A stretch of DNA of 33,047 nucleotides, from the NCBI GenBank assembly GCA_902783985.1, contig CACZTI010000085.1:1-33047 (forward strand). The letters run 5' to 3'. Positions 27,269 through 28,334 of this stretch are shown one piece after another. Each line of letters opens with the position of its first letter. The first letter of the stretch is position 1. The notes beneath the pieces were generated by a model, which searched no databases, was not told the DNA's origin, and saw only the letters and a list, made by a program, of their open reading frames with translations. The DNA is from an uncultured Erysipelotrichaceae bacterium. Lineage in GTDB: Bacteria; Bacillota_I; Bacilli_A; RF39; UBA660. Both the position numbers and the translations under genes were made by a program.

Positions 27269-28141
27269 TCATCTACTTATACCAATTGTTTTTAATATTC
27301 TTTGTAAATAATCTTTATCATTATTTTCATAAATGCAAAAGCATCTTTTACCAAGTTCTTTAAAACTTGCCCCACATGAATATAGTTTATTTCTATCAAG
27401 AATTATAAATCGATCATGAAATGAGTTATTATTTATAAATCTTACATTGTTATACTGTGATTCATATTTCTTTTTTAATATTTCATTGATATTACTTGAA
27501 ACTATTATTATTTTTTTATTAACATTCTTTAAAATATCCAATAACTCCTTACCTGCATAATTATCTATTATAATTATTTCTTCAGATGTTTTATTAAAAA
27601 TATCTAATAGTAAAGAATAAGCATCATACAATTCTTTTTCAAAAAATATTTTGGAAAGTTCCTTTTCTTTAAAACTATCTAATGTATTTTCTAATACTAA
27701 CAATCTTTTTTCATGATTAACTAATATTTCATTATTACTTGTATTATTTGCAAAATACTTTCGCATTTTAACAAAAGCATTAATTATCTCAATATTTACC
27801 TTAACTGCTATATCACTTTTTAATAAACCAGATAACATCATTATCCCCTGTTCAGTTAACACATAGGGCAAATATTTTATATTGTAGCCACGTGAATTAT
27901 TACTTTTGTTCAAGGTCACAATTTGTGACCTTGAAGATAATTCATCTATTTCATCATTTGTTAATTGAAAACAAAAACTACTTGGAAATCTATTAATATT
28001 TCTTTTAATGGTTTGATTTAAAACTTTCGTTTCAACTTGATAAAGTTTAGCAACATCACTTGATAACATTACCTGCACTCCTCTTATTTCATAAATCATG
28101 TTTTCTATATGAATTGCTTCTTTTTCTATTACTTCGTTCAT
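27269..28141 (-). CDS. ORF6N domain protein with PLD-like C-terminal domain
   Basis: Protein of 290 residues with an N-terminal ORF6N domain (about 10-130): YEIRGVQVMLSSDVAKLYQVETKVLNQ, NINRFPSSFCFQLT and YVLTEQGIMMLSGLL. The family is DNA-binding, common in phages and mobile islands. The C-terminal half (about 165-285) has an alternating strand/helix pattern (EEIIIIDNYAG, KKIIIVSSN) and NSFHDRFIILDRNKLYSCGASF, a single HxD/HxK-like PLD motif with His242 but changed lysine. This is the layout of ORF6N proteins with phospholipase-D-like ends. It carries a 27-bp palindrome in codons 69-78 and is preceded by a structured leader with terminator. AGAGGAGG is the ribosome site. Confidence 0.85.
   Translation of the reverse strand: MNEVIEKEAIHIENMIYEIRGVQVMLSSDVAKLYQVETKVLNQTIKRNINRFPSSFCFQLTNDEIDELSSRSQIVTLNKSNNSRGYNIKYLPYVLTEQGIMMLSGLLKSDIAVKVNIEIINAFVKMRKYFANNTSNNEILVNHEKRLLVLENTLDSFKEKELSKIFFEKELYDAYSLLLDIFNKTSEEIIIIDNYAGKELLDILKNVNKKIIIVSSNINEILKKKYESQYNNVRFINNNSFHDRFIILDRNKLYSCGASFKELGKRCFCIYENNDKDYLQRILKTIGISR
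27909..27935. repeat. 27-bp perfect palindrome inside the ORF6N gene
   Basis: TTCAAGGTCACAA (27909-27921), a single central T (27922) and TTGTGACCTTGAA (27923-27935) form a 13+1+13 inverted repeat. It encodes the SRSQIVTLN region on the minus strand. Its geometry is the same as that of the palindrome at 342-368 in the RhuM remnant. Confidence 0.92.
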
Positions 28142-28167
28142 TATAAATGCCTCCTCTCAAAATAAAG

Positions 28168-28212
28168 AAAAAAAGAGTATTCCTCCCTTTAAATCCAAAG
28201 GTCGGTATACTC
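28168..28212 (-). terminator. Intrinsic terminator of the leader upstream of the ORF6N gene
   Basis: On the minus strand GAGTAT (28207-28212) pairs with ATACTC (28175-28180). An inner CCTTT/AAAGG stem (28197-28201 with 28186-28190) lies inside, and seven T (28168-28174) follow. The ORF6N ribosome site begins about 10 bases later. Confidence 0.65.
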
Positions 28213-28299
28213 CGCAGCATGCATGTTTTCATTTTGCCTCTAAAAACACACCTTAGCGTCCAAATTTTCCGTTTAAATATCAGGCAAACTATTTAATAC
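28168..28299 (-). ncRNA. Structured leader or small RNA before the ORF6N gene, family not identified
   Basis: A roughly 130-nt transcript is bounded by a promoter (28306-28334) and an intrinsic terminator. A 7-bp perfect stem TTTGCCT/AGGCAAA (28282-28288 with 28233-28239) encloses a loop containing GGACGCTAAGG. An AAGGT in this loop (28250-28254) could pair with ACCTT (28198-28202), part of the terminator stem, so an antiterminator-type switch is possible. The region is richer in G and C than its surroundings and lacks a reading frame. GGACGC and GC...ACCGA recall blocks of c-di-GMP-I riboswitches, but the full consensus is not there. It may be a cis regulator of the ORF6N gene or a free small RNA. 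Confidence 0.5.
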
Positions 28300-28305
28300 A
28301 TATTA

Positions 28306-28334
28306 ATTTTATTATAATCCTTCCATTTTATCAA
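28306..28334 (-). promoter_or_regulatory. Promoter of the ORF6N leader/ncRNA
   Basis: TTGATA (28329-28334), a 17-bp spacer and TAAAAT (28306-28311) on the minus strand. It lies in the gap after the RlmCD-type gene and points at the structured region. Confidence 0.65.

Follow-up and report, generated by a model that had tools for sequence, protein, structure and literature searches.

AbiF loci consist of a promoter, a structured non-coding RNA of ~130 nt, an intrinsic terminator and a single defence-type gene that is expressed via read-through (PMC12373285), and in both AbiF-RCd22 and the type III systems the RNA serves as antitoxin, its ratio to the mRNA being set by the terminator (PMC12373285, PMC5086642). 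The put RNA of HK022 by itself suppresses downstream pausing and termination (PMC9378689). Here we describe a locus in a stretch of 33,047 nucleotides (the window) from an uncultured Erysipelotrichaceae bacterium, in which an RNA at 28301-28168 on the minus strand precedes a gene for an ORF6N protein (Table 1). An earlier note, made from the sequence alone, had placed a TTGATA-17-TAAAAT promoter, an intrinsic terminator and a directly following ribosome site where we also find them, and had likened the locus to defence genes with upstream ncRNAs, a likeness that the AbiF layout (PMC12373285) bears out. ORF6N, KilA-N, RhuM-Fic, DinD and YhcG proteins are widespread single-gene defence candidates, mostly unexplained; a common RNA before unrelated candidates of this kind points to common control and offers a sequence handle for finding further members.

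Table 1. Features of the RNA-ORF6N locus, in window positions.
Feature	Position	Strand	Basis or remark
Promoter: TTGATA (28334-28329), 17-nt spacer, TAAAAT (28311-28306)	28306..28334	-	Sequence
TATAAT, overlapping TAAAAT	28316-28311	-	Sequence
Conserved RNA core (match to models R1/R2)	28212..28301	-	5' end is the expected transcription start
Hairpin P1: TTAAATA (28296-28290) with TATTTAA (28279-28273)	28273..28296	-	Two-sided changes
Kissing-helix loop 1, TTTGCCT	28282..28288	-	Covariation with own partner loop
Conserved joining strand; triplet CGC here, CGA in most relatives	28252..28272	-	Correlated with 3' GCTGCG/GATGCG
Hairpin P2: GTGTGTTTT (28251-28243) with AAAACATGC (28229-28221)	28221..28251	-	Two-sided changes
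Kissing-helix loop 2, AGGCAAA	28233..28239	-	Complementary to loop 1
Intrinsic terminator, stem 28213-28174, 7-U run to 28168	28168..28213	-	Stem begins within conserved GCGG
Ribosome site AGAGGAGG, directly after terminator	28150..28157	-	Sequence
ORF6N protein with PLD-like C-terminal domain, 290 aa, ATG at 28141	27269..28141	-	Pfam ORF6N, PADLOC PDC-S05

The RNA recurs within the window's own genome, in a second copy that is 85% identical and likewise lies before an ORF6N gene (L002). A third copy, at a contig end, has diverged further and has a terminator. Searching with the ORF6N protein brought up 22 related loci, about half of which carry the RNA at the same position. Building a covariance model from ORF6N upstream regions, as the earlier note had proposed, both recovered relatives and brought out covariation: model R1, built from 11 copies, matched 35 of the 385 genomes of the order and 25 of its 117 genera, and model R2, built from 53 matches, found copies in three more genomes of the same family, in each case among draft genomes and with rough model E-values. 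The 52 distinct copies that were collected come from uncultured gut bacteria of the Bacilli/Tenericutes type. A class-level search gave no believable copy outside the host family; its sole match in another family lies inside a coding gene, a weak match before recG has no terminator, and both were judged to be chance. Viral, phage and plasmid collections gave no match to the RNA, the viral contigs being searched by three exact strict patterns that could miss distant copies, and a phage or plasmid origin was rejected on these results.

No family of Rfam 15 reached its gathering score on the RNA, and scans below threshold gave only scattered weak matches, all far under gathering scores. The c-di-GMP-I model (RF01051) had no match at E<=10 across the whole genome; together with all other Rfam families it is excluded by these searches, in keeping with the note, which could assign the RNA to no known family with confidence. 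We found no description of the RNA among open-licence papers. Judged by its sequence and its recurrence, it is a conserved family absent from Rfam.

As a single sequence, the window RNA folds more stably than its shuffled versions (z -2.75), and across the 52 distinct sequences 15 of the 16 pairs of two hairpins, P1 and P2, carry two-sided compensatory changes. The two hairpins together show 81 cells with two-sided changes as against 21.9 +/- 3.8 after shuffling, a value that exceeds all 500 shuffles, and slid controls reach only 11-25 cells; with the second copy in the same genome, this bears out the proposal that the structured RNA is real. Two-sided changes occur at six of seven pairs in P1, where 72.5% of cells are paired and the pairing register has moved by 1 nt in some copies, and at all nine pairs in P2, where 91.9% of cells are paired.

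In nearly all copies the P1 and P2 loops are complementary to each other over 6-7 nt, as counted by a simple complementarity search, and the complementarity is retained through sequence change (TTTGCC/GGCAAA, CTTGCC/GGCAAG, CTAGCC/GGCTAG, CTTGTC/GACAAG, GTTGCT/AGCAAC and CTTACC/GGTAAG). A simple energy model does not form this helix in the window; it is comparison that supports it. The 7-nt complement TTTGCCT/AGGCAAA, which had been read as a 7-bp stem-loop, is indeed present, but on this comparative evidence it is a loop-loop (kissing) helix between P1 and P2 rather than a simple stem. A triplet in the joining strand is correlated with the 3' strand, CGA occurring with GATGCG in 17 copies, CGC with GCTGCG in 11 and each mixed combination in one, a correlation that may be due in part to the relatedness of the copies. 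Each transcript in the alignments has one core, and the motif is free of tandem repeats. A loop-to-terminator pseudoknot (AAGGT with ACCTT), also proposed earlier, did not survive comparison and was rejected: its letters occur in the window only (one of 49 copies), and the region pairs with its own terminator no better than with those of other copies.

A -35/-10 pair lies just before the element in 26 of 51 copies, compared with 4.0 (maximum 10) in shuffled upstream DNA, and in most copies a -10 hexamer is found immediately upstream, which makes it probable that transcripts begin with the element. The core is followed by an intrinsic terminator in 49 of 50 copies. The first paired base of the terminator keeps a constant offset from the 3' CG in 43 of 49 of them, with a possible 1-nt overlap of core and terminator at GCGG, and the terminator sequence itself is free to vary between copies. 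In 37 of 44 copies the ribosome site lies no more than 35 nt beyond the terminator, usually within about 10 nt, which in most copies leaves no space for a second promoter, so that expression of the gene should depend on read-through. Most transcripts would end at the terminator as a free RNA of about 130 nt, and the gene would be nearly silent and expressed solely by polymerases that read through.

Pairing of the RNA with its surroundings was assessed by comparing each copy with its own and with other copies' sequences. The earlier note had entertained an attenuator; one of the classical kind, with a pairing-based antiterminator, is not borne out, because the gain with a copy's own terminator arm (-1.66 kcal/mol) is no better than with the arms of others (-1.57 kcal/mol; mean rank 0.53). 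A leader peptide was also rejected, since the ATG in ATGACAATTTAA is missing from several copies. C4 RNA acts beside phage antirepressor (ant) genes, and PHROGs labels the ORF6N protein an anti-repressor, which would suit an antisense leader of C4 type that pairs with the ribosome site of its own gene; we consider this extremely improbable, because the core pairs with its own ribosome-site region (-13.15 kcal/mol) no better than with those of other copies (-13.26 kcal/mol), no complementarity specific to its own gene's start was found, and C4 (RF01695) gives no Rfam match.

The genes behind the RNA encode mostly ORF6N-PLD proteins, as well as RhuM-Fic, KilA-N and Bro-N/DinD proteins (one Bro-N protein is DinD by NCBIfam), a YhcG/DUF1016 nuclease, a metallophosphoesterase and a REase-like protein, which makes at least six unrelated families of suspected phage-defence genes. 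Among the 44 proteins of alignment A3, 24 are ORF6N proteins. PADLOC assigned proteins of this cargo to PDC-S05, S23, S22, S13 and S02, where PDC denotes a predicted phage defence candidate and not an experimentally tested system (PMC11514479): PDC-S05, the best model for the ORF6N protein, matches 24 of the 44 and PDC-S23 seven, and scans of representatives from the other cargo families gave S22, S13 and S02 matches at E<1e-90. The window's ORF6N protein matches Pfam ORF6N at E 1.9e-29 and PDC-S05 at E 3.4e-84, and none of the ten other window genes scanned matches a PDC-S model. Its C-terminal half has a predicted PLD-like fold resembling NucT, Zucchini and TrmBL2, with pLDDT mostly 80-90 there, and in the modelled domain HxR replaces the usual HxK, so that catalysis is uncertain. 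In two genera a protein of ~250 aa follows the RNA (at 1707-2456 of L076, minus strand, and in L120 as an ORF 33-806 nt past the RNA); the L076 protein has no Pfam match and a weak match to a type II restriction enzyme.

The RNA does lie beside the ORF6N gene, as had been claimed, but a particular pairing of the two, or a strict dependence of the RNA on ORF6N, was rejected: other gene families are fronted by the RNA as well, and ORF6N occurs in 178 of the 385 genomes as against 35 with the RNA, so that most ORF6N genes of the group are without it. A general link to RhuM was likewise rejected, as none of the 24 RhuM matches of nearly full length is preceded by the RNA, and in the RNA-fronted RhuM-Fic proteins the match to the RhuM profile is confined to its N-terminal part.

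Some further sequence features of these genes were noted. A palindrome of 17-35 bp around GGTCNNAATTTNNGACC lies within the ORF6N coding sequence (27909-27935 in the window) and also in the ORF6N genes of L009, L010, L011, L014, L018, L034, L043, L078 and others; its arms vary between genes while self-complementarity is kept, with or without the RNA, and it may be an operator for the ORF6N protein or an mRNA hairpin. Palindromes resembling LexA sites (GAACAATTGTTT, GAACATATGTTT and similar) overlap the promoters of L061 and L073, and also those of L082, L084 and L085, which are without the RNA, which suggests possible SOS control of part of the gene group. The minus strand of the window further carries a RhuM gene fragment with an internal stop codon (74-331) and an ORF with a run of GIEQ/EQGI repeats near its C-terminus that is cut by the contig end (32621-33046).

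With the exception of L044, nearly every complete copy of the RNA is followed on the same strand by a candidate-defence gene or its remnant, with the ribosome site adjoining the terminator. This association weighs against a free regulatory RNA that has other mRNAs or host factors as its targets in trans and merely carries the downstream gene along, a reading that would account for a conserved free-standing transcription unit and for L044, which lies after ppdK without a gene behind it. L044, however, is degenerate: its promoter is lost and its core damaged, as expected of decay, and we regard a trans-acting RNA as distinctly improbable.

The sequence of the RNA tracks the host genome and not the gene family behind it. 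Copies before different genes of the same genome are on average 89.3% identical, whereas between genera mean identity is 75.9% for copies before the same gene family and 74.9% before different families (permutation p 0.07); in genome G359, three copies that are 97-99% identical precede KilA-N, RhuM-Fic and ORF6N genes. Recent duplication or gene conversion could produce such similarity within a genome. The pattern argues against a dedicated RNA-protein pair and so bears on the possibility that the RNA is an antitoxin, in which an abundant short RNA would bind the protein that rare read-through yields and keep it in check, in the manner of AbiF-RCd22 and the type III systems. The order of promoter, structured RNA, terminator and gene matches both AbiF (PMC12373285) and type III loci (PMC5086642), and the cargo includes the Fic domain of the RhuM proteins, of the Doc-like toxin type, and nuclease-type folds in other proteins. 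Toxicity of the cargo is only putative, though, the motif has no tandem repeats, and the cargo belongs to unrelated families, whereas a single genome can have nearly identical RNAs in front of different cargo; we hold the antitoxin reading to be doubtful, if still the foremost of the alternatives.

Gene and RNA are both accessory. In one genome of the same genus, the neighbouring methyltransferase gene is present with neither RNA nor ORF6N behind it, and several copies located after ppdK in different genomes are variously succeeded by ORF6N, by an ORF6N remnant and then YhcG, or by no gene. KilA-N (L035, L090, L091) and YhcG (L042) sit behind short remnants of ORF6N 5' ends, as if, to judge from these remnants, one candidate-defence gene had replaced another. 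That species of one genus differ in having the RNA at a given site, and that genes are exchanged behind a constant front, with KilA-N and YhcG inside ORF6N remnants (L035, L042), would also be expected of a mobility or recombination module, whose folded RNA or single-stranded DNA is recognised by a transposition or recombination enzyme. Promoter and terminator are conserved along with the fold, however, no conserved 3' end was noticed, and searches of phage and plasmid collections, and of viral contigs by strict patterns, gave no match, which makes such a module highly improbable.

We lean slightly towards the reading that the RNA is a general cis-acting 5' leader that gates accessory genes at the terminator, and not the dedicated partner of one protein. 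With the kissing loop holding it together and the terminator immediately adjoining, its tertiary fold would influence termination, and a partner common to the cell (RNA polymerase or an elongation factor, a metabolite, a signal of stress or of phage) would alter termination there and so open the gate. A partner of this general kind is most likely in view of the six or more unrelated families that share the RNA and of a sequence that tracks the genome. This reading is supported by the compensatory changes in the hairpins and the kissing helix, by the promoter, the terminator at its fixed offset and the nearby ribosome site, and by the varied cargo types behind an RNA with no pairing specific to its own gene's start. 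Against it stand the failure to find an alternative antiterminator structure, the many relatives of the same genes without the RNA, a fixed strong terminator that is equally compatible with a free trans-acting RNA, and a genome-wise similarity of the RNA that could stem from duplication or gene conversion. The constancy of the RNA before unrelated cargo is why we rank the cis-acting gate above the antitoxin, which comes second. A more specific version, which we think unlikely, is that the family is a general-purpose phage-defence gate: polymerase would normally stop at the terminator, and an event of infection, be it the action of an antitermination factor or a terminator-insensitive polymerase of the phage or damage to the leader RNA, would permit read-through and switch on whichever effector follows. 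If the gate exists, a single structured leader RNA would here serve accessory genes that can be exchanged, and not just one pathway, which would be unusual; a control exerted at termination would be open to direct test.

Compared with known systems, the locus shares the order of promoter, RNA, terminator and gene with the AbiF ncRNA (RF03085; RCd22 of C. difficile), but sequence and fold differ, with no Rfam match, a single kissing-loop motif takes the place of the two abiF motifs, and several unrelated protein families stand behind the RNA, none of them AbiF, which is a HEPN protein. With the type III systems (ToxIN, CptIN, TenpIN) it has in common one promoter for RNA and gene, split by an intrinsic terminator, and tertiary pairing of the RNA; it differs in having no tandem repeats, no ToxN-type RNase and an RNA that does not track the protein family. 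The c-di-GMP-I riboswitch (RF01051) shares a few letters with the RNA (GGACGC), but its fold is different. Terminator-type riboswitches and attenuators resemble it in the conserved 5' leader, the terminator adjoining the core and the gene after it, whereas in the present family no pairing-based antiterminator was found and the genes are accessory rather than those of a metabolic pathway. The HK022 put RNA, although its structure differs, is likewise a small two-hairpin 5' RNA, and the RNA described here could, like it, act on RNA polymerase.
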